64,000 nucleotides of DNA from Arenicola marina. Its lineage: Eukaryota; Annelida; Polychaeta; Arenicolidae. The stretch lies in contig OZ025258.1 of NCBI GenBank assembly GCA_964019135.1, forward strand, positions 4,669,961-4,733,960, written 5' to 3'. Below the pieces are notes generated by a model. It was not told the origin of the DNA. It saw only the letters and a list, made by a program, of their open reading frames with translations, and did not search any database. Within the stretch, counting starts at the first letter, position 1. The number at the start of each line of letters is the position of its first letter. The position numbers and the translations under genes were made by a program. Below are positions 6,096 to 31,762 of the stretch, in pieces.

Positions 6096-7808
6096 CCAGG
6101 CAAGGAGGCAGGAAACCCGCTCCCAGTGACGAGAGGCAAGGCGAACGGCAGGGAACCCTCGCCCAGTGACGACAGGCGAGAAGAACGGCAAGGCACCAGC
6201 GCAAAGTGACGACAGTCTAGGAGAGTGGCAGGAAACCAGCGCTCTGTGACGATGCAGGCGAGGAGAGCGGCAGGGAACCAGCGCCCAGGGACGACAGGCG
6301 AGGAGAGCGGCAGGGAACCAGCTCCCAGTGACGACAGGCGAGGAGAGCGGCAGGAAACCAGCGCCCAGTGACGACAGGCTAGGAGAGTGGCAGGGAACCA
6401 GCGCCCAGTGACGAGAGGCGAGGAGAGCGGCAGGGAACCAGCGCCCAGTGACGACAGGCTAGGAGAGTGGCAGGGAACAAGCGCCCAGTGACGACAGGCT
6501 AGGAGAGTGGCAGGGAACCAGCGCCCAGTGACGAGAGGCGAGGAGAGTGGCAGGGAACCAGCGCCCAGTGACGACAGGCTAGGAGAGTGGCAGGGAACCA
6601 GCGCCCAGTGACGAGAGGCGAGGAGAGTGGCAGGGAACCAGCGCCCAGTGACGACAGGCTAGGAGAGTGGCAGGGAACCAGCGCCCAGTGACGAAAGGCG
6701 AGGAGAGCGGCAGGGAACCAGCGCCCAGTGACGACAGGCTAGGAGAGTGGCAGGGAACCAGCGCCCAGTGACGAGAGGCGAGGAGAGCGGCAGGGAACCA
6801 GCGCCTAGTGACGACAGGCTAGGAGAGTGGCAGTGAACCAGCGCCCAGGGACGACAGGCGAGGAGAGCGGCAGGGAACCAGCGCCCAGTGACGAGAGGCG
6901 AGGAGAGTGGCAGGGAACCAGCGCCCAGTGACGACAGGCTAGGAGAGTGGCAGGGAACCAGCGCCCAGTGACGAGAGGCGAGGAGAGCGGCAGGGAACCA
7001 GCGCCCAGTGACGACAGGCTAGGAGAGTGGCAGGGAACCAGCGCCCAGTGACGAGAGCTAGGAGAGTGACAGGGAACAAGCGCCCAGTGACGACAGGCTA
7101 GGAGAGTGGCAGGGAACCAGCGCCCAGTGACGAGAGGCGAGGAGAGCGGCAGGGAACCAGCGCCCAGTGACGACAGGCTAGGAGAGTGGCAGGGAACCAG
7201 CGCCCAGTGACGAGACGCGAGGAGAGCGGCAGGGAACCAGCGCCCAGTGACGAGAGGCGAGGAGAGTGGCAGGGAACCAGCGCCCAGTGACGACAGGCTA
7301 GGAGAGTGGCAGGGAACCAGCGCCTAGTGACGAGAGGCGAGGAGAGCGGCAGGGAACCAGCGCCTAGTGACGAGAGGCGAGGAGAGCGGCAGGGAACCAG
7401 CGCCCAGTGACGACAGGCTAGGAGAGTGGCAGGGAACCAGCGCTCAGTGACGAGAGGCGAGGAGAGCGGCAGGGAACCAGCGCCCAGTGACGACAGGCTA
7501 GGAGAGTGGCAGGAAACCAGCGCCCAGGAACGACAGGCGAGGAGAGCGGCAGGGAACCAGCGCCCAGTGACGAGAGGCGAGGAGAGCGGCAGGGAACCAG
7601 CGCCCAGTGACGACAGGCTAGGATAGTGGCAGGGAGCCAGCGCCCTGTGACGATGCAGGCGAGGAGAGCGGCAGGGAACCAGCGCCCAGGGACGACAGGC
7701 TAGGGGAAAATGGCAGGGAACCACCGCTCTGTGACGACAGGCTAGGAGAGCGGCAGGAAACCAGCGCCCAGTGCCGAAAGGCAAGGAGAGAGGCAGGGAA
7801 CCAGCGCC
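6096..7808. repeat. 40-bp minisatellite, about 43 copies, alternating two variants
   Basis: Each unit begins GCGCCCAGTGACGA and ends GGCAGGGAACCA. In long stretches it alternates between a CAGGCTAGGAGAGTGG form and a GAGGCGAGGAGAGCGG form, giving an 80-bp dimer period. Units at both ends are more diverged. The 228-codon open frame on the minus strand is a by-product of the repetition. Confidence 0.95.
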
Positions 7809-9024
7809 ATTGAGCGATTGTTCCCGTTGCTACCCCCCCCCCCTTGGGATCACAATGCAATAACATTACACACATGGAATAGTGACTTAGTCCTATTTGT
7901 TATGCTAGGAAACTTACATCGTCTCAAAGATCAAATAGTTCATTAACGACCCAGGAATCACAGGCTGGTAGGAAACGTTTCCAAGTGGTATACTAACCAA
8001 CAATGGTAGAATTAATAGCTTCTAGAGTCCGTACTTTGATAACTGACATAACTAATCGAATCTACGATTATAGCCCTATAGACTAACTTGTCCGCCAGGA
8101 ATACTCTGCCCGTAGACCAGAAAACTAAAACAGAAAAATAGTTGAAATTATGATGCAAACCGAAGTTGGATTTACTTACTAAAATCCTGAAGGTGTTGGC
8201 ACAGCTGGTGGCAGCGGTGACAGTGCAGCTTGCACAGCGCCACCATGCGGCAGAGAATGATTTTGCACGTGGCAATGTTTACAGCGTTTTTTCATCGTCA
8301 TTATTAAAAACGTTCTCTTGTTTCGACCGATTTGGAAATAAGCTACTATGACTTCATGTCATAAAACCAGAATTAAAGAAGCATATTAAAAATGTCTCAA
8401 TGGGCTTCGAGACGTTGTGTAAACCATTGTTTTAAATGTTTTTCCAGGGAGGGGGGATTAGTGGTAAGGTTCTTAGCCATTATGTACCTAGCGGCAGGTG
8501 CAGGTGCAGCCGGTGCAGGCAAGGTGCAGGGTGCGACCAATCCGGCCCTGGACCCCGGGCCCTGGACACACCGGCGACCAACAGGGGTCCGGAAGGGATA
8601 AATCGCGACACGTGACACAGGCATATTAGAAAAATCGACATTCGGAGTTGACCCCCAAATTCCGACACTGAGGATCTGAAAACCAAAAGATCTGACTTTT
8701 TTAAAGAAAAACCGACACTGAATTTAGCCAAAAAACGACACGGAACGTCGTGAAAAATCGACATTCGACAATGAGAATATGCAAAAATCGGGACGTTAGA
8801 CAGGAACCTTTAAGCTCCACACTTCGCCCAACTGATGGACTTCAGTAATACCTAGTAGTTTATTTTGATTTCCCGATTTTATTATTATTTTTTTACTTAT
8901 TATTATTCACTGTACGCGATCTCAGTCGGCTGTTTACCATCATGTCTGATGTTACCATCAGACATTTTTTTGGAAATGATTTTATCATATGGTTACAATA
9001 AAAAAAGAAAAAAAAAGAAAGGAG
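7809..9024. other. Unique AT-rich spacer
   Basis: No gene recognised. Contents: a poly-C run near 7838-7848; a (GGTGCA)-like short repeat near 8500-8535; a cluster of AAAAATCGACA-type words (8627, 8706, 8728, 8752, 8783); a TTA-rich tract near 8880-8905; and the hairpin at 8942-8971. The frame at 8392-8601 has a hydrophobic Ala/Gly-rich patch, but its composition follows the short repeat. Confidence 0.5.
8942..8971 (+). other. Perfect 10-bp hairpin followed by a T run
   Basis: ATGTCTGATG-TTAC-CATCAGACAT is a perfect stem with a 4-base loop, followed directly by a T run ending at 8971. The geometry resembles a terminator hairpin, but no transcript is evident nearby and the context is eukaryotic. 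Confidence 0.6.
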
Positions 9025-23300: not shown

Positions 23301-26168
23301 GGGTGCGGGGCAGTGTGTGGCGGTTGGGATGGAGGGGGAGGAGAGGGGGTTGAGAGAGGGGTGCGGGGCAGTGTGTGGTGGTTAGGATGGAGGGGGAGGA
23401 GAGGGGCTTGAGAGAGGGGTGCGGGGCAGTGTGTGGTGGTTAGGTTGGAGGGGTAGGAGAGGGGGTGGAGAGAGGGGTGCGGAGCAGTGTGTGGTGGTTA
23501 GGATGGAGGGGGAGGAGAGGGGGTGGAGAGAGGGGTGCGGGGCAGTGTGTGGCGGTTAGAATGGAGGGGGAGGAGAGGGGGTTGAGAGAGGGGTGCGGGG
23601 CAGTGTGTGGTGGTTAGGTTGGAGAGGGAGGAGAGGGGGTTGAGAGAGGGGTGCGGGGCAATGTGTGGTGGTTAGGTTGGAGGGGGAGGAGAGGGTTGAG
23701 AGACGGGTGCGGGACAGTGTGTGGTGGTTAGGTTGGAGGGGGAGGAGAGGGGGTTGAGAGAGGGGTGCGGGGCAGTGTGTGGTGGTTAAAATGGAGGGGG
23801 AGGAGAAGGGGTTGAGAGAGGGGTGCGGGGCAGTGTGTGGTGGTTAGGATGGAGGGGGAGGAGAGGGGGTGGAGAGAGGGGTGCGGGGCAGTGTGTGGCG
23901 GTTAGGTTGGAGGGGGAGGAGAGGGGGTTGAGAGAGGGGTGCGGGCAGTGTCTGGTGGTTAGGTTGGAGGGGGAGGAGAGGGGGTTGAGAGAGGGGTGCG
24001 GGGCAGTGTGTGGTGGTTAGGTTGGAGGGGGAGGAGAGGGGGGTTGAGAGAGGGGTGCGGGGCAGTGTGTGGTGGTTAGGATGGAGAGGGGGGAGAGGGG
24101 GTTGAGAGAGGGGTGCGGGGCAGTGTGTGGCGGTTAGGATGGAGGGGGAGGAGAGGGGGTTGAGAGAGGGTTGCGGGGCAGTGTGTGGTGGTTAGGTTGG
24201 AGGGGGAGGAGAGGGGGTTGAGAGAGGGGTGCGGGACAGTGTGTGGTGGTTAGGTTGGAGGGGGAGGAGAGGGGGTTGAGAGAGGGGTGCGGGACAGTGT
24301 GTGGTGGTTAGGTTGGAGAGGGAGGAGAGGGGGTTGAGAGAGGGGTGCGGGGCAATGTGTGGTGGTTAGGTTGGAGGGGGAGGAGAGGGTTGAGAGAGGG
24401 GTGCGGGACAGTGTATGGTGGTTAGGTTGGAGGGGGAGGAGAAGTGGTTGAGAGAGGGGTGCGGGGCAGTGTGTGGTGGTTAGGATGGAGGGGGAGGAGA
24501 GGGGCTTGAGAGAGGGATGCGGGGCAGTGTGTGGTGGTTAGGTTGGAAGGGGAGGAGAGGGGGTTGAGAGAGGGGTGCGGGGCAGTGTGTGTGGTGGTTA
24601 GGTTGGAGGGGGAGGAGAGGGGGTTGAGAGAGGGGTGCGGGGCAGTGTGTGGTGGTTAGGATGGAGGGGGAGGAGAGGGGGTTGAGAGAGGGGTGCGGAG
24701 CAGTGTGTGGTGGTTAGGATGGAGGGGGAGGAGAGGGGTTTGAGAGAGGGCTGCGGGGCAGTGTGTGGTGGTTAGGTTGGAGGGGGAGGAGAGAGGGTTG
24801 AGAGAGGGGTGCAGGGCAGTGTGTAGTGGTTAGGATGGAGGGGGAGGAGAGTGGGTTGAGAGAGGGGTGCGGGGCAGTGTGTAGTGGTTAGGTTGGAGGG
24901 GGAGGAGAGGGGGTTGAGAGAGGGGTGCGGGCAGTGTCTGGTGGTTAGGTTGGAGGGGGAGGAGAGGGGGTTGAGAGAGGGGTGCGGGGCAGTGTGTGGT
25001 GGTTAGGTTGGAGAGGGAGGAGAGGGGGTTGAGAGAGGGGTGCGAGGCAGTGTGTGGTGGTTAGGATGGAGAGGGAGGAGAGGGGGTTGAGAGAGGGGTG
25101 CGGGGCAGTGTGTGGCGGTTAGGATGGAGGGGGGGGAGAGGGGGTTGAGAGAGGGGTGCGGGGCAGTGTGTGGTGGTTAGGTTGGAGGGGGAGGAGAGGG
25201 GATTGAGAGAGGGGTGCGGGGCAGTGTGTGGTGGTTTGGTTGGAGGGGGAGGAGAGGGGGTTGAGAGAGGGGTGCGGGGCAGTGTGTGGTGGTTAGGTTG
25301 GAGGGGGAGGAGAGGGGGTTGAGAGAGGGGTGCGGGGCAGTGTGTGGTGGTTAGGTTGGAGGGGGAGGAGAGGGGGTTGAGAGAGGGGTGCGGGGCAATG
25401 TGTGGTGGTTGGGTTGGAGGGGGAGGAGAGGGGGTTGAGAGAGGAGTGCGGGGCAGTGTGTGGTGGTTAGGTTGGAGGGGAAGGAGAGGGGCTTGAGAGA
25501 GGGGTACGGGGCAGTGTGTGGTGGTTAGGTTGGAGGGGGAGGAGTGGGGGTTGAGAGAGGGGTGCGGGGCAGTGTGTGGTGGTTAGGATGGAGGGGGAGG
25601 AGAGGGGGTTGAGAGAGGGGTGCGGGGCAGTGTGTGGTGGTTAGGATGGAGGGGGAGGAGAGGGGGTTGAGAGAGGGGTGCGGGGCAGTGTGTGGTGGTT
25701 AGGTTGGAGGGGGAGGAGAGGGGGTTGAGAGAGGGGTGCGGGGCAGTGTGTGGTGGTTAGGATGGAGGGGGAGGAGAGGGGGTTGAGAGAGGGGTGCGGG
25801 GCAGTGTGTGGTGGTTAGGATGGAGGGGGAGGAGAGGGGGTTGAGAGAGGGGTGTGGGGCAGTGTGTGGTGGTTAGGTTGGAGGGGGAGGAGAGGGGGTT
25901 GAGAGAGGGGTGCGGGGCAGTCTGTGGTGGTTAGGTTGGAGGGGGAAGAGAGGGGGTTGAGAGAGGGGGCGGGGCAGTGTATGGTGGTTAGGATGTAGGG
26001 GGAGGAGAGGGGGTTGAGAGAGGGGTGCGGGGCAGTGTGTGGTGGTTAGGTTGGAGTGGGAGGAGAGGGGGTTGAGAAAGGGGTGCGGGGCAGTGTGTGG
26101 TGGTTAGGATGGGGGGGGGAGGAGAGGGGGTTGAGAGAGGGGTGCGGGGCAGTGTGTGGTGGTTAGGT
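11332..26168. repeat. 58-bp G-rich minisatellite, about 255 copies (left part)
   Basis: Each unit runs through GGATGGAGGGGGAGGAG, AGGGGGTTGAGAGAGG, GGTGCGGGGCAGTG and TGTGGTGGTTA. Variants (GGTTGG, CAATGTG, GGAAGAGGAG, GGCGGTTA, GGTGGAGAG) are unevenly spread, and blocks of units are duplicated. Units with short insertions or deletions break the strict period. The array is interrupted by the LINE and resumes at 31758. Confidence 0.97.
26164..26168. repeat. Target-site duplication, left copy (TAGGT)
   Basis: TAGGT sits in the array word GGTTAGGT immediately before the LINE. Removing the LINE and one copy restores the ordinary array sequence GTGGTTAGGTTGGAGG. The exact length is slightly ambiguous because short words recur in the array and tail. 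Confidence 0.7.
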
Positions 26169-26174
26169 GATCCT

Positions 26175-26183
26175 AGATGGCGG
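26175..26183 (+). promoter_or_regulatory. YY1-like site at the LINE 5' end
   Basis: AGATGGCGG lies seven bases into the element and matches the core of the YY1 site found at the very start of mammalian L1 elements. Whether it is used for start-site choice here is inference. Confidence 0.4.
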
Positions 26184-26274
26184 ACGCGTGAAGAAGCGAG
26201 TAGCGGGTAGCCAATTACACTAGTAAATTACGCACATTTAAGCTGCATATCAACAACTCGGAATATATATCCAG

Positions 26275-27330
26275 ATGGGCAAATCCCATAGGAAAAGAAA
26301 TAGGACTAATAGTGGTGCCAGCAGCAACAAGAAGCAGCAAAAATCGGCCAAGTTTTCTCCACAAAGAGATTCCATGGGCGATAATACGGCCATTATGGAA
26401 AACTTTAGCTGTAAGGAGGGCGTACAAACAGAAACCGACATCGCACCTGTTCGGTCTTGCGACCCTAGCATCTCCACAAACGCGAACGACTCACCCAGGC
26501 CTACTGAAGCCGCTGCAACCGAAACTAATTACGTCGTTCAACTCTCTCCTGGCAATGAGGTGTTGGTTGAAATTAACAACAAGCTGGACAATATTGTGAG
26601 CCAACTTGAAATTCAGCACTTGGATATTCATGGCCCGGACGGCATACAAGACCAACTGGCCTTTGCCGCGACAGAGCACGGGAGCAACCATGGCCATATT
26701 GCCACTCATGAGCAAGAAATTCAAGACCTTAAAAATGATGTTACTGTTCTCAAATCGATTGCTGTCCGGCAAAGTCACGAAATCCAATCACTTCGAGATG
26801 AATGTACTGCATTAAAGTGCAGATCGATGGCAAATAATGCATTATTTCATAATGTGCCTGAAGCAAATGGAAACACCCAGAATACTGAAGAGTGCCTGGA
26901 TAAGCTAAAACACACCCTGCAGCGTCTTGGATATAATATGGATATGGCTATAGAGCGCTGCCACAGACTTGGTAGGTGGCGAAGCAACCCCGCTTCCAAT
27001 CCTCGGCCAATAGTTGCAAGACTTACATCACAGAAAGACTTGGCATCCCTTCTAGAATTTTCCCGGAAGAAACTACCAAAAGGCGCCAACGCGTTTCGTA
27101 TCACTCCACACTACCCTCCGGAAATACTCGAACGAAGGAAAGAATACGGGGAACGCGCCGAGGCTGCTAGAGAAAGAGCTGCACCCAACCGAGTGCAAAC
27201 AAAGGTAACAAACGATGCTCTGTATATTAATAATGAGCGCCAAAAAGACAATCTTCATGGTATATCGCCACAGGACATCCTACAGCTGACAGCTCAACAG
27301 CGCGAAGATGAAATGTCTGTACTACCCTAA
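26275..27330 (+). CDS. LINE ORF1 protein (RNA-binding, L1-type fold)
   Basis: The product would be the RNA-binding partner of the reverse transcriptase, coating element RNA in the ribonucleoprotein. The 351 residues show a basic Lys/Arg/Ser-rich N-terminus (1-30), a low-complexity linker, a predicted coiled coil at about 95-183 with heptad-like Leu/Ile spacing, and an RRM-like core (184-265). That core starts NNALFHNVPE and includes the ERCHRLGR word typical of L1-type ORF1. A C-terminal domain (268-320) carries FRITPHYPPEILERRKEY. The start is the first ATG after the 5' untranslated region. It stops at TAA 27328-27330, but the same frame continues into an IMPACT-like domain, so the stop looks like a later mutation that shortened a roughly 471-residue protein. 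Confidence 0.88.
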   Translation: MGKSHRKRNRTNSGASSNKKQQKSAKFSPQRDSMGDNTAIMENFSCKEGVQTETDIAPVRSCDPSISTNANDSPRPTEAAATETNYVVQLSPGNEVLVEINNKLDNIVSQLEIQHLDIHGPDGIQDQLAFAATEHGSNHGHIATHEQEIQDLKNDVTVLKSIAVRQSHEIQSLRDECTALKCRSMANNALFHNVPEANGNTQNTEECLDKLKHTLQRLGYNMDMAIERCHRLGRWRSNPASNPRPIVARLTSQKDLASLLEFSRKKLPKGANAFRITPHYPPEILERRKEYGERAEAARERAAPNRVQTKVTNDALYINNERQKDNLHGISPQDILQLTAQQREDEMSVLP

Positions 27331-27690
27331 CACACAGTTGGACCTGTGGTTACTCAAACTGGTGCAACGGCCTACGCGACGATCATCCCCGTGCAAACGT
27401 TACAGGATGTGCGGATAAACTACAAGCGGCTAATGCTAGATCCAGACAGAGCCAAAGCTGCACACAATGTGGTGGCTTACCGCCTCGCCGATAAGCAAGA
27501 ATGATGGTTTGACGATGGGGACCACGGTTCAGGACGTCACAGTAAGTTCATCATAAAGCGACGTGGACTGGACAACATCGCGATCATCGTCACACGGCGT
27601 TTTGGCGACAGAGCGGCCAGCTTCAACCGCTTTAAGGTCCTCGAATCGGCCATTGAAGCCGCGCTTCAAAAACACAATCAGGCGGACTAA
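27331..27690 (+). pseudogene. In-frame IMPACT/YigZ (UPF0029)-like domain at the end of LINE ORF1
   Basis: In the same frame as ORF1, past its TAA, about 120 codons run to TAA 27688-27690 with one more stop (TGA 27502-27504). They show the signature of the IMPACT N-terminal/YigZ family. There is an opening strand region (ATAYATIIPVQTLQDVR), then HNVVAYRL, then WFDDGDHGSGRH (family form DDGEHGAG-R). Next are NIAIIVTRRFGD (family form VVVTRWYGG) and NRFKVLESAIEAAL (family form DRFK-I). In cellular proteins this fold occurs in IMPACT, a regulator of GCN2 signalling, and in bacterial YigZ. Its role in a LINE is unknown. The family assignment rests on these motifs by eye. It is a relic in this copy because of the two stops. 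Confidence 0.72.
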
Positions 27691-28152
27691 TTATCGGTGG
27701 TCGCTGGCTACCAAGTGTATGTCTTGGTAAGTGCGAATATCCAGATCAAAGTGTGATCAATAAGGACTTTAACCATACGGACAAGTTTACCTATGTACAC
27801 TGCTATAAATATGAATAAGTGGTACTATATCTCGTACGATTGGTCTGTATATATAACATATATCATAGCTCAAATGTGTTTAAATTATACTTAGAATAGG
27901 CTACACGTTGCTCGCAAATCAGAATGGTGATGTACCTAAATGAGACGGTGTATGGATATACACTTATATGTATCCTTCATTGTCGTACAAGCTGGAGTTC
28001 ACAAAACCAGCTTAATGTTCGAACATGTGAAAATCTACTTAGTATTGTGCCAATAGTTATTTTTGTATTCACTCAGTTATTTGTTAACTTGCACTTGTTT
28101 TTGACACGCGTCTATGCTGTATTATTAATTCATACCTGGCATGTGTTAGCGT
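27691..28152 (+). other. LINE spacer between ORF1 and ORF2
   Basis: AT-rich spacer within the element. It contains a 78-codon open frame (27924-28160) with a hydrophobic second half that overlaps the ORF2 start by eight bases in another frame. It resembles nothing I know and may be chance. An in-frame TAG at 28147-28149 just upstream fixes ORF2's start at 28153. Confidence 0.6.
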
Positions 28153-30918
28153 ATGTGTGATCAAACTGCTCGAGAAATCCTCGAAAATTATGGCGGGATA
28201 GAGTGTAATTCGTTGACCGAAATAGTCTCAGAAAATCAAGATTTTATAGACTTTAACGAGCCAACTTTGATAAAACGTTCATTGTATTATCCTGAGGACA
28301 TAGCGCCCGATAAAAATCTCAAAGATAGAGATAACTTCTCCGTTCTGAGCCTGAATTGTTGCTTTTTAAACGCGAGACTTGACGAGCTCAAGATATCTCT
28401 AGAAACTATGACAGCAAGGGGTGTTCATTTTACAGCTATATGCTTGCAAGAGAGTTGGCTTTCAGAGGACGTCGATATAGATATGTTCCAAATACCGGGT
28501 TATGTTTCAATATCTCAGAGTAAAACGTGTAGTGCCCACGGTGGTCTGTTCATCTACCTAGATGAAAATCTTGATGGTACTGTAATACCCACTCAGACGG
28601 ACAAAACAGGTTGGGAATTGCAATTAATTGAAATATCTGGTTATCTGACACGTAAAATTATACTTGGAAATATATACAGACCTCCAAATGAAACGACCGA
28701 GAGCTATACTTTGTTCACCGAAGAACTACATGAAACCCTAGAACATCTAAACGTAGCGAATCATGAAGTCCTCCTAACAGGAGACTTTAATATTGACTTA
28801 CTAAAGATTAAAGAAAATAGAAAGGTAAATGAGTTTTATGATGCTGTGACGTCCTCGAGTGATATCCCCAAGATTACCTTACCCACAAGAATCTCACGAC
28901 ACAGAGGTTCACTCATTGATAATTGTTATTGCAAGATGTCTCCTATTACCATAGATGCAACGGCTGGGATATTTATTAAAGGTATGTCAGATCATTTCCC
29001 CTACTTCGTTTGCTTAAAGTTGATCAGAAATCCGCCATCAAGGTCGCCTCGTTTAATCTCTATTAGTTCAAATGACCCAGACTCAGTCAACCGGTTCATT
29101 GATGAACTAAGGTCCGTGAACATTGTAGTCCGTATTACAGAAAATGGGGATTTTAATGCTAATGAGAAGTATAATGTTTTTGAAGAGATTTTATTCAAGG
29201 CCAAAGAGACACATCTCCCCACTAAAGTTGTAAAATTTAGAAAATATAAACACAAAAGAACCCCTTGGATAACTAGTGGAATTATTCGATCAATTAAATT
29301 CCGCGATAAGTTATATAAAAAAATAAAGCTATGTGTACCTGAGTCGCCTGAATACAATACGTATAAGACAAATCTAGCTACTTACAACAAAATACTGAAA
29401 GAAAATATTCAGGAGTCCAAAATAAAGTACTATCATTCACGATTAAATATGTGCAAAAATGATATTAAACAAACATGGATGGTACTGAAAGACGTGTTAA
29501 ATCACTCTCGTAATAAAAGAACATTTCCCGAGTACTTTAGAATAATTAATCACTGCGTAAGTGATAAAATGATTGTAAGTAATGAATTTAATACGTACTT
29601 CACTAAAATTGGTAAGACCATTCTAAAAGATAATGAGAGCAACAGCCATCGAACGTTTAAAGACTATCTGAAGAATGCTACAAACAGCAGCTTTAGCTTT
29701 AAGCAGGTTGAGATTAAAGCCGTTGAAAGTGTCATAGACGATCTAAAACCGAAAACCAGTTGTGGTCATGATGGAATATCAGCAAAGTTGTTAAAATTGG
29801 CAAAACATGTGATATCCGAACCCTTGTCCATAATCATCGACCAATCACTGAAGACTGGGGTTTTCCCGGATAGCTTAAAGGTAGCGAAAGTTGTGCCAGT
29901 TCTTAAAACTGGTGACAGCTCTCTGTTTAATAACTATCGCCCTATCTCATTACTACCGGCAGTATCCAAAGTTTTTGAAAAGGTCATGGCTAAGCAATTA
30001 TATGACTATTTTACGGGTAACAAGTTATTAAATGAGAGTCAATATGGATTTAGAGCCAAACACTCCACTGAACTTGCCGTGCTAGAAATAGTGGACAGAA
30101 CAATTAACCTAATGGATGAAAATATAATACCCATAAATATTTTCCTCGACCTTTCTAAGGCTTTCGATACCATTAACCACGAAATCCTTATTACAAAATT
30201 GAAATATTATGGTGTAAATGGAATGTCCTTGAATCTCATCGAAAATTATTTCTTTAATCGTAAGCAATTCGTATGTCTTGAAAATGTTAGTTCGGAGCCA
30301 AAACATATCAATATGGGGGTTCCGCAAGGTTCTATCCTGGGCCCTCTCTTCTTCATTATCTATATCAATGACATCACCTGTGCCAGCAAATTGTTCCACT
30401 TTATCATTTATGCTGATGACACGACTTTGTTGAGCACACTAAGTTTATCTGGTACGAATAACGCACATGTATTGAATAGTGAACTGGGCAAAATAAATGA
30501 GTGGCTGTCATTAAATAGCCTCGTCTTAAATGCTGATAAGTCTAAATTCATGGTGTTCCATACATCACAGAGAAAGGTAGAAATTCCGCACCTTGTCGTA
30601 GGAAACAAACCGTTAGTGTGTGTTGATGAATTACTAGGTATAACCCTCGATAAACACCTATCTTGGCACAAACACACAGATCAACTGGGTCGAAGAATTT
30701 CCGAAACTCTAGGCATCTTAAACAAATTCAAGCACACCCTCCCCGAAACTACGCTTCTCATATTGTACAATGCATTGTTGCTTACACATTTGAACTATGG
30801 AATTCTTATCTGGGGATACCGATTGGAGAAGTTAATGCTACTGCAGAAAAAAGCTGTGAGAATTATTACTCGTAGCCGATACAACGCCCACACAGAACCT
30901 CTATTTAAGAATCGCTAA
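28153..30918 (+). CDS. LINE ORF2: endonuclease and reverse transcriptase (ends at a premature stop)
   Basis: This is the enzyme of target-primed reverse transcription. It nicks target DNA and copies element RNA from the exposed end. The endonuclease/exonuclease/phosphatase domain covers about residues 61-288: LNCCFLNARLDEL (67-79), LQESW with the metal-binding Glu (98-102), NIYRPP (173-178), GDFN (210-213), SLIDN (253-257) and SDH (279-281). The reverse transcriptase spans about 523-790: GHDGIS, YRPISLLP, QYGFR, FLDLSKAFD with the first catalytic Asp (664-672), GVPQGSILGPLFF, and YADD (753-756, bases 30409-30420). A thumb-like region with LTHLNYGILIWG and LQKKAVRIIT follows. All expected catalytic residues are present. 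The 921-codon frame ends at TAA 30916-30918, but the same frame continues to 31278, so about 120 residues are cut off. The ATG at 28153 is the first available. Confidence 0.95.
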   Translation: MCDQTAREILENYGGIECNSLTEIVSENQDFIDFNEPTLIKRSLYYPEDIAPDKNLKDRDNFSVLSLNCCFLNARLDELKISLETMTARGVHFTAICLQESWLSEDVDIDMFQIPGYVSISQSKTCSAHGGLFIYLDENLDGTVIPTQTDKTGWELQLIEISGYLTRKIILGNIYRPPNETTESYTLFTEELHETLEHLNVANHEVLLTGDFNIDLLKIKENRKVNEFYDAVTSSSDIPKITLPTRISRHRGSLIDNCYCKMSPITIDATAGIFIKGMSDHFPYFVCLKLIRNPPSRSPRLISISSNDPDSVNRFIDELRSVNIVVRITENGDFNANEKYNVFEEILFKAKETHLPTKVVKFRKYKHKRTPWITSGIIRSIKFRDKLYKKIKLCVPESPEYNTYKTNLATYNKILKENIQESKIKYYHSRLNMCKNDIKQTWMVLKDVLNHSRNKRTFPEYFRIINHCVSDKMIVSNEFNTYFTKIGKTILKDNESNSHRTFKDYLKNATNSSFSFKQVEIKAVESVIDDLKPKTSCGHDGISAKLLKLAKHVISEPLSIIIDQSLKTGVFPDSLKVAKVVPVLKTGDSSLFNNYRPISLLPAVSKVFEKVMAKQLYDYFTGNKLLNESQYGFRAKHSTELAVLEIVDRTINLMDENIIPINIFLDLSKAFDTINHEILITKLKYYGVNGMSLNLIENYFFNRKQFVCLENVSSEPKHINMGVPQGSILGPLFFIIYINDITCASKLFHFIIYADDTTLLSTLSLSGTNNAHVLNSELGKINEWLSLNSLVLNADKSKFMVFHTSQRKVEIPHLVVGNKPLVCVDELLGITLDKHLSWHKHTDQLGRRISETLGILNKFKHTLPETTLLILYNALLLTHLNYGILIWGYRLEKLMLLQKKAVRIITRSRYNAHTEPLFKNR

Positions 30919-31278
30919 CTCCTAAAGCTTCATGATCTTCACCGTGTGCAAATACTAAAATTCGTTTTTAAGTTAAAAAATAATCACTTACCAAGCTATT
31001 TTGATAAAATTTCTATACAATATCCCCCTGACAGACATGACTATAACATAAGGAATCAAACACACGTACAAACCGCAAGAGGGCGTCATGTTTTTGCCAC
31101 AAAGTGTATCCGACATAGCCTCATGTCAACACTCAATGTCGAACCACCGATTATTTTAGACAAAATATATACCCACAGTCTAGACAGTTTTGTAAAGTAT
31201 GTGAAACATAATGCTATAGAAAACTACCAGATTTATTGTAACTTGCGTAACTGCTATATTTGTAATCGGTTGGCGTAG
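30919..31278 (+). pseudogene. C-terminal remainder of LINE ORF2 after the premature stop
   Basis: This lies in the same frame as ORF2 and continues the usual end of this protein group (LLKLHDLHRVQILKFVFKL, then YNIRNQ). It ends at TAG 31276-31278. The segment has no further stop, so the break at 30916 is the only one seen in ORF2. Confidence 0.85.
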
Positions 31279-31757
31279 ATATTACTACCATAAATGCAGT
31301 GTTGTTTTTCTTTGCTTGATCTCGATACGTATTCTATTTTTGTAAAAATGCATCTGACAATGTATTAAATTAGTATTGATTGTATATCGCTAGTTTAAAT
31401 AACGTTGCAAACGTATTATTGAGTGGCATGGACGTGGTTGTTTTTGTTTAATGAACACTTTTTTTTTCTCTCTTTTTTTTCCCTTTTGTTGTCATTGTTC
31501 TATGTTATTATTTTCTTTTCTACTTGTATTTGTTAATATAATAATTTGATAAGTTCCAGTTAGGTAGGAACTTGTAAATCATGCACCGTGCGTCCTCCTG
31601 AAACACACATACTGAATGTGCTCTACCCTGGGTGGCCCTCATGCCAGCGGCTTATGCCTTAGTGAGCGTCTCCTCCGACTTAATGTAAAATATAACATGT
31701 AAAATGTATTAATTCTATTTAGATTGGAAATAAAAGGTCTGAATCTGAATCTGAATC
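31279..31757 (+). other. LINE 3' untranslated region and GAATCT tail
   Basis: T-rich non-coding sequence including a pyrimidine tract at about 31458-31495, an AATAAA signal at 31729-31734, and three tandem GAATCT-like units ending the element. A short tandem tail instead of poly-A is typical of L2/Rex1-like and related LINEs and is probably what the reverse transcriptase recognises. Confidence 0.8.
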
Positions 31758-31762
31758 TAGGT
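31758..31762. repeat. Target-site duplication, right copy (TAGGT)
   Basis: TAGGT directly follows the GAATC tail and leads back into TGGAGG, the normal continuation of the interrupted 58-bp unit. Confidence 0.7.

Follow-up and report, generated by a model that had tools for sequence, protein, structure and literature searches.

Of the two LINE proteins, the ORF1 protein (ORF1p) is the one about which less is understood, including its selection of its own RNA and its dealings with the translation machinery. The type II form of ORF1, in which a coiled coil precedes an RRM and a CTD, is described for L2-lineage subgroups 3, 5, 6 and 7 and for CR1 subgroups 1, 5 and 8 (Metcalfe and Casane 2014, PMC4120745). 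Table 1 of that paper, which covers 448 elements of the Jockey superfamily, lists PHD, RRM, CCHC, esterase, zinc-finger/leucine-zipper and LINE-1-like domains, and no UPF0029. The same source reports reticulate ORF1 evolution within the CR1 and L2 lineages of this superfamily, suggests that exchange can come about when 5'-truncated copies insert between an ORF1 and its ORF2, and cites a proposal that the esterase type was acquired across clades. Esterase-bearing ORF1s such as that of ZfL2-1 (PMC3905857) parallel the proteins described below in that an extra ORF1p domain is scattered over LINE clades, but both the domain and the architecture differ.

The second point of comparison is IMPACT and its homolog Yih1, which combine an RWD with a so-called ancient domain. 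As described in the accounts cited here, both proteins associate with ribosomes (PMC7140605, PMC4503747), bind G-actin and inhibit GCN2 (PMC7140605). Inhibition of GCN2 is ascribed to competition for GCN1 through the RWD, which in yeast inhibits by itself when overexpressed (PMC7140605), and the same accounts describe the function of the ancient domain itself as unknown (PMC7140605, PMC4503747).

We analysed a stretch of 64,000 nucleotides from the annelid Arenicola marina (hereafter the window), which contains on its forward strand a full-length LINE copy (26169-31757) whose ends were placed by eye at the junctions with a surrounding array. Its ORF1 (26275-27330, 351 aa) ends at a premature in-frame TAA (27328-27330), at a place that relatives read through, and includes a putative LINE-1 ORF1p-like RRM-CTD core (26824-27315) that was located by the 52% identity of C11:4696784-4697275 to the core of a related locus, L022, its likeness to LINE-1 ORF1p coming from a profile of 15 cores. 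Past this TAA, the frame runs to a final TAA (27688-27690) and is interrupted once by a TGA (27502-27504). The predicted UPF0029, or IMPACT-type, domain that forms the C-terminus of ORF1 occupies 27334-27687 (Pfam-matched part 27373-27663), and the TGA lies within it. ORF2 (28153-30918) extends for 921 aa to a premature stop, beyond which the frame goes on (judged by eye), and three sibling ORF2s measure 1056-1074 aa. It contains an endonuclease-like region (about 28432-28935; E 0.0016, below the Pfam cut-off) and a reverse transcriptase (29926-30567; RVT_1, 1.4e-32), and the element closes with a (TGAATC)n microsatellite tail (31738-31757). Because two stops interrupt the ORF1 frame and one interrupts ORF2, this LINE is a decayed copy; it is a full-length non-LTR retrotransposon with a CR1/L2-like ORF2 and comes from a large set of LINE families of the genome.

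The insertion site is a tandem array of a 58-bp G-rich minisatellite unit (25001-26168), which resumes at 31758. TAGGT is found at both array/LINE junctions and fits a short target-site duplication, which is ambiguous within an array. Elsewhere in the window, a second long tandem array (43500-64000) has long open frames on both strands, with RAGCATSWGL and VAQPALNP repeats, and is probably non-coding.

A sequence-only reading of this DNA had proposed that a UPF0029 domain follows the ORF1 stop directly and in the same frame, and had suggested a profile search of the 27331-27690 translation. That search returned a significant match: with the TGA written as X, the 119 residues that begin at 27331 align to PF01205 (UPF0029) at 44.9 bits (E 1.3e-11), well above the curated cut-off of 27 bits, and cover positions 6-106 of the 107 in the profile. 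In addition, an independent genome-wide search with PF01205 hit the same place (G000:C11:4697333-4697623, window 27373-27663) at 44.4 bits. The reading had further expected that an intact relative would encode an RNA-binding ORF1 fused to the domain, and had named as the contrary outcome that all relatives end ORF1 near 27330. Relatives instead have one continuous ORF1, in which the RRM-like core is followed by the domain. UPF0029 is recognized by Pfam scan in nine of nine uninterrupted ORF1 representatives (42.5-57.6 bits, E down to 1.4e-15), and the domain occupies the same place in all 17 related ORF1 rows examined by sequence (L036 and L037 being one family), which puts the resemblance of the window stretch far beyond chance.

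Chance or convergence as the source of this likeness is accordingly rated as extremely improbable. Such an explanation could appeal to the window sequence alone, which matches PDB entries weakly (bacterial 2cve first, E 0.014, then 6bqi, E 0.039), and to a fold search that gave nothing, but it is opposed by the Pfam E values in relatives and by the match of a profile of 16 domain rows to the whole ancient domain of the yeast IMPACT homolog (6bqi, residues 137-251, E 5.9e-13). The fold search used a poor single-sequence AlphaFold2 model of the window domain (mean pLDDT 65, pTM 0.61). Foldseek of this model against the PDB gave a best E of 0.65, with no IMPACT or YigZ structure in the best 50 of 194 matches (E <= 10), a result that we regard as uninformative for such a model and not as evidence against a UPF0029 fold.

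The family had been named IMPACT/YigZ in the sequence-only reading. Its assignment to UPF0029 stands, and by profile the domain is nearer to eukaryotic IMPACT/Yih1 than to YigZ. Bacterial YigZ shares PF01205 with the LINE domain and supplies the first weak match of the window sequence alone. However, the NCBI YigZ model (TIGR00257) reaches at best 21.4 bits against a cut-off of 167.95, with a match at E <= 0.1 in four of nine ORF1s, and the 16-row profile finds nothing in the PDB at E <= 10 besides 6bqi, bacterial entries included. On balance, the LINE domain appears to be of the IMPACT kind rather than the YigZ kind. The resemblance to IMPACT/Yih1 covers the whole length of the ancient domain, which in ORF1p stands behind an RRM-CTD. 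IMPACT proteins carry an N-terminal RWD and a C-terminal ancient domain; the ORF1s have the second of these, whereas a Pfam scan found no RWD at E <= 0.05 in any of the nine uninterrupted representatives.

A separate host gene of this kind appears to exist in the same genome, where L029 (2629-2847; G000:C10, near 33245131) contains an exon of an IMPACT-like gene that the HMM of the LINE domain matches at 1.4e-5. The location of this exon elsewhere, together with its own match to the HMM, indicates that the host gene and the LINE copies are distinct. A search for an RWD exon belonging to it found four RWD matches in the genome, none of them on C10. We infer that the LINE domain was derived from a eukaryotic IMPACT-like gene.

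These comparisons bear on one possible function, mimicry of IMPACT, in which ORF1p would act on the GCN1-GCN2 (or actin) axis so that eIF2alpha phosphorylation falls and LINE RNA is translated under stress. The sole PDB relative of the domain profile is an IMPACT homolog, matched over the whole ancient domain; the host exon makes it plausible that the target pathway is present; and IMPACT and Yih1 are themselves GCN2 inhibitors that bind G-actin (PMC7140605). However, competition for GCN1 is ascribed to the very RWD (PMC7140605) that the nine ORF1s lack, and we consider mimicry unlikely.

The core that precedes the domain is related to that of LINE-1 ORF1p. A profile of 15 cores matches the LINE-1 ORF1p structures 2ykp, 2ldy and 2yko at 6.5e-5 to 8.2e-5, and the relation must be distant because Pfam's LINE-1 ORF1 model has no match at E <= 0.05 in the nine ORF1s scanned. 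By this predicted LINE-1-type RRM-CTD, the ORF1s are assigned to type II. In front of the RRM, coiled-coil-type Pfam matches are weak and below their cut-offs, and heptads were judged by eye. The layout would therefore be a variable N-terminus, a probable coiled coil, the RRM-CTD core and the C-terminal IMPACT-type UPF0029 domain, the last of which is what these LINE families add to the type II plan of LINE-1 ORF1p. Within the domain alignment, H44, R50, D60, D61, G62 and G65 form an invariant or near-invariant cluster. The domain has a net positive charge in 13 of 14 rows, the exception being L033, which ends early and has no net charge (pI 6.8).

The fusion is widespread in the 867-Mb assembly, whose 37 wnt matches, against none in 14 control genomes, point to an animal. 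With 150 of 289 candidates scored, the genome search yielded at least 150 PF01205 matches above the cut-off. In each of twenty loci taken from these matches and selected for long open frames, the domain lies within an ORF1 frame, an outcome that the selection itself entails, and in most of them ORF2 frames follow. Three odd matches were considered as stray UPF0029 copies; one is the host gene exon in L029, and L030 and L031 are domain-only fragments near the L015 family. A protein query joining core and domain, which is biased toward copies holding both parts, gave 135 listed matches that all span the core-domain border; by our own count, 127 of these extend to residue 283 or beyond of 290, and 109 are stop-free over the matched stretch.

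To look for ORF1s of this type in which the domain is absent, the genome was searched with an RRM-CTD core taken from one L1-type family. Eight core-found ORF1s with long frames (417-450 aa) and no listed UPF0029 match all proved to have the domain by its own HMM (E 4.6e-41 to 3.6e-28), in a sample whose choice for long frames favours the domain and in which L033 ends early. At 16 further core-found loci with shorter frames (294-391 aa) and again no listed UPF0029 match, the domain lies directly downstream in at least 12. No domain is found among the matches listed at the other four, near C14:25103811, C1:58819107, C5:46038507 and C5:15660200. The C1:58819107 locus is also missing from the listed core-plus-domain matches although its siblings appear there, which could mean that this locus has no domain or has it in a shifted frame. 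The proposal that the domain is missing from some ORF1s of this type was set aside, with these four loci as possible exceptions.

Several further observations concern the reach of the family. A group of domain copies with 65% identity to L037 each have one TGA in the matched stretch (C1:30011346, C1:51057409, C1:73256230, C4:19041797, C8:35860436, C19:9991066 and others), which is possibly the natural end of ORF1 there. At G000:C11:5726319-5726981, an ORF1 match lies inside an open frame of 2264 residues. A search of viral contigs with a whole ORF1 found no relative, and prokaryote contigs searched with the L022 domain gave a single match of 26 residues. Taken at the level of sequence comparison, the predicted fusion of an IMPACT-type domain to a LINE ORF1 is confirmed as real, although the window copy is decayed.

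The domain is kept by purifying selection as strong as that on the core. Maximum-likelihood dN/dS for 10 rows under a GY+F3X4 codon model, given as estimated omega with pairwise dS saturated between most families, comes out at 0.067 for the domain against 0.078 for the core, and the domain is thus about as constrained as the RNA-binding part of the protein. L015/L020, the sole pair with finite pairwise dS in both parts, gives 0.109 for the domain and 0.069 for the core. Recent movement of these LINE families is indicated by near-identical copies with different flanks, since eight of nine copy pairs compared show 98.98-99.84% identity across 5.6-6.3 kb and differ in their flanks. The flanks also align in the ninth pair, L026/L027 (98.7% identity), which may be a duplicated locus.

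That core and domain evolve together under equal constraint is what would be expected if the domain had a structural role only, folding, packing or stabilizing the trimer of ORF1p without an RNA, ribosome or signalling partner. Such a role is possible but doubtful, because the type II ORF1s tabulated by Metcalfe and Casane are listed without a domain of this kind (PMC4120745), and because the conserved cluster of H44, R50, D60, D61, G62 and G65 suggests a binding surface.

The ORF2s that accompany this ORF1 fall into several sets. L013, L017 and L032/L041 make up an L1-clade set: the L013 ORF2 aligns with human L1 ORF2p over residues 14-1189 at E 4.8e-98 (2.6e-27 with R2), both L013 and L017 contain zf-RVT, and L041, 64% identical to L013 across 1110 residues, is placed in the clade with L032 by that identity. 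A second set (L011, L022, L034/L043) has a CR1/L2-like ORF2 that starts with a PHD-like zinc finger, detected in L011 (residues 15-65; E 0.0019, below the Pfam cut-off) and in L022 and L043 by likeness, a feature shared with L2 subgroup 5 (PMC4120745). The plain CR1/L2-like set comprises the window element, L015, L019/L020, L024/L025, L028 and L039/L047. The remaining pair, L033/L042 and L036/L045, is divergent and is grouped by the ORF2 tree without full support (82/86). The ORF2s of the window, L015, L019, L024, L011 and L022 are called CR1/L2-like from their length, the lack of a zf-RVT or RNase H match and their microsatellite tails. Between L1-clade and CR1/L2-like elements, ORF2 identity is 21-26% over part of the length, whereas ORF1 identity is 34-40% over 350-469 residues.

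Paired ORF1 and ORF2 trees were built for 14 rows. These exclude L026/L027, whose ORF2 is broken into many pieces, L035/L044 and L038/L046, whose reverse-transcriptase pieces are short or split, and L037, which belongs to the L036 family. The ORF2s of L020 and L025 were taken from their sisters L019 and L024 (elements about 99% identical), those of L032, L033, L034, L036 and L039 came from the overlapping L041, L042, L043, L045 and L047, and rows L034 and L039 have fewer than half of their columns filled. The ORF2 tree unites the PHD set as one clade (100/100). The ORF1 tree scatters it, placing L011 with L028 (100/99), L022 within the plain set (100/99) and L034 with L033 (100/99), the last two in turn grouping with the L1-type ORF1s (99/97). 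In AU tests, whose p values are descriptive because the groups were named after identities and trees had been seen, the ORF1 data rejected three sets as clades, namely the PHD set (p 2.5e-6), the plain set (p 1.6e-7) and the divergent pair (p 1.9e-4), but kept the L1-clade set together (89/93), and the ORF2 data rejected four groupings that ORF1 favours (p 2.1e-5 to 1.3e-46). Analysed separately, core and domain each reject the PHD and plain sets, which indicates that the two travelled together. On the divergent pair they differ, since the core rejects it (p 0.019) and the domain does not (p 0.17). The conflict between the trees points to movement of an ORF1 cassette between LINE lineages.

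The same conflict would arise if neighbouring or nested elements had been mis-paired, with no exchange of ORF1. Several rows do depend on a lone fragment of a broken ORF2, and the first sighting of some families was at a single locus. However, the arrangement recurs in independent copies (L009-L011; L021/L022; L012-L014 and L018; L016/L017), and for the families of L028, L034 and L033 a second copy has the same ORF1-ORF2 pairing, so that mis-pairing is largely refuted and very unlikely.

The ends of the elements were also compared. ATGGCG lies no more than about 15 bases from the aligned 5' end in five of seven families (L011, L013, L020, L022, L025), the 5' ends of L016/L017 and L026/L027 being unresolved, and also in the window element (26177). 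This motif resembles a YY1-type site of human L1, so that the exchanged cassette may include the promoter. The 3' tails are A-rich in L1-type families (L012-L014, L016/L017), and those of CR1/L2-like families are TTA, TTC, CATC or TGAATC microsatellites. Beside the LINE in L009, a 640-aa open frame on the minus strand (7079-9001) is, judging by its motifs, presumably the end of an LTR-retrotransposon pol.

The explanation that we favour, and consider fairly probable, is that these LINE families share a type II ORF1 with an IMPACT-type domain that has been exchanged between lineages, and that the domain serves as an RNA- or ribosome-facing module of the particle. A 5' cassette consisting of ORF1, and perhaps the 5' UTR, would be exchanged among LINE lineages by recombination, or alternatively when a 5'-truncated copy lands between an ORF1 and its ORF2. 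Within the ORF1p-RNA particle, the domain may add a contact to structured RNA or to the ribosome and translation machinery, which is the least certain step. This added contact would help ORF1p to remain with its own RNA, or to go on translating it, and would not act as a free GCN2 inhibitor. With modest confidence, we prefer such a module to a free inhibitor because no RWD was found in the ORF1s scanned and because the domain is net positive in nearly all rows, stands behind an RNA-binding core and has a conserved residue cluster.

The exchange proposed here resembles that between CR1 and L2 elements in its reticulate history and differs from it in that L1-clade ORF2s are involved as well (PMC4120745). 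The full-text literature searched, which excluded Repbase, Dfam and most subscription journals, contained nothing that connects retrotransposons with YigZ, UPF0029 or the IMPACT domain, nor did it bear out the tentative suggestion in the sequence-only reading that similar domains occur in invertebrate ORF1-like proteins. Given that scope, we regard the IMPACT-bearing LINE ORF1 as provisionally new, adding both a domain and the L1 clade to the known exchange of ORF1.

The finding would matter in several ways. A conserved domain of a translation regulator on the ORF1p of families that are recent and uninterrupted gives experiments a direct point of entry. The occurrence of one cassette before both L1-clade and CR1/L2-like ORF2s in a single genome suggests that ORF1 exchange reaches the L1 clade, and therefore that ORF1 and ORF2 should be classified apart. 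For annotation, genomes that seem rich in IMPACT-domain genes may in fact be counting retrotransposons. A more far-reaching version, possible but less likely than not, is that a single IMPACT-bearing ORF1 cassette serves as an interchangeable mobile 5' module across clades (L1, CR1/L2-like and others), with the domain holding the ribosome or the GCN1-GCN2 machinery. If this were true, that hold would be a host interface of a kind new for retrotransposons.
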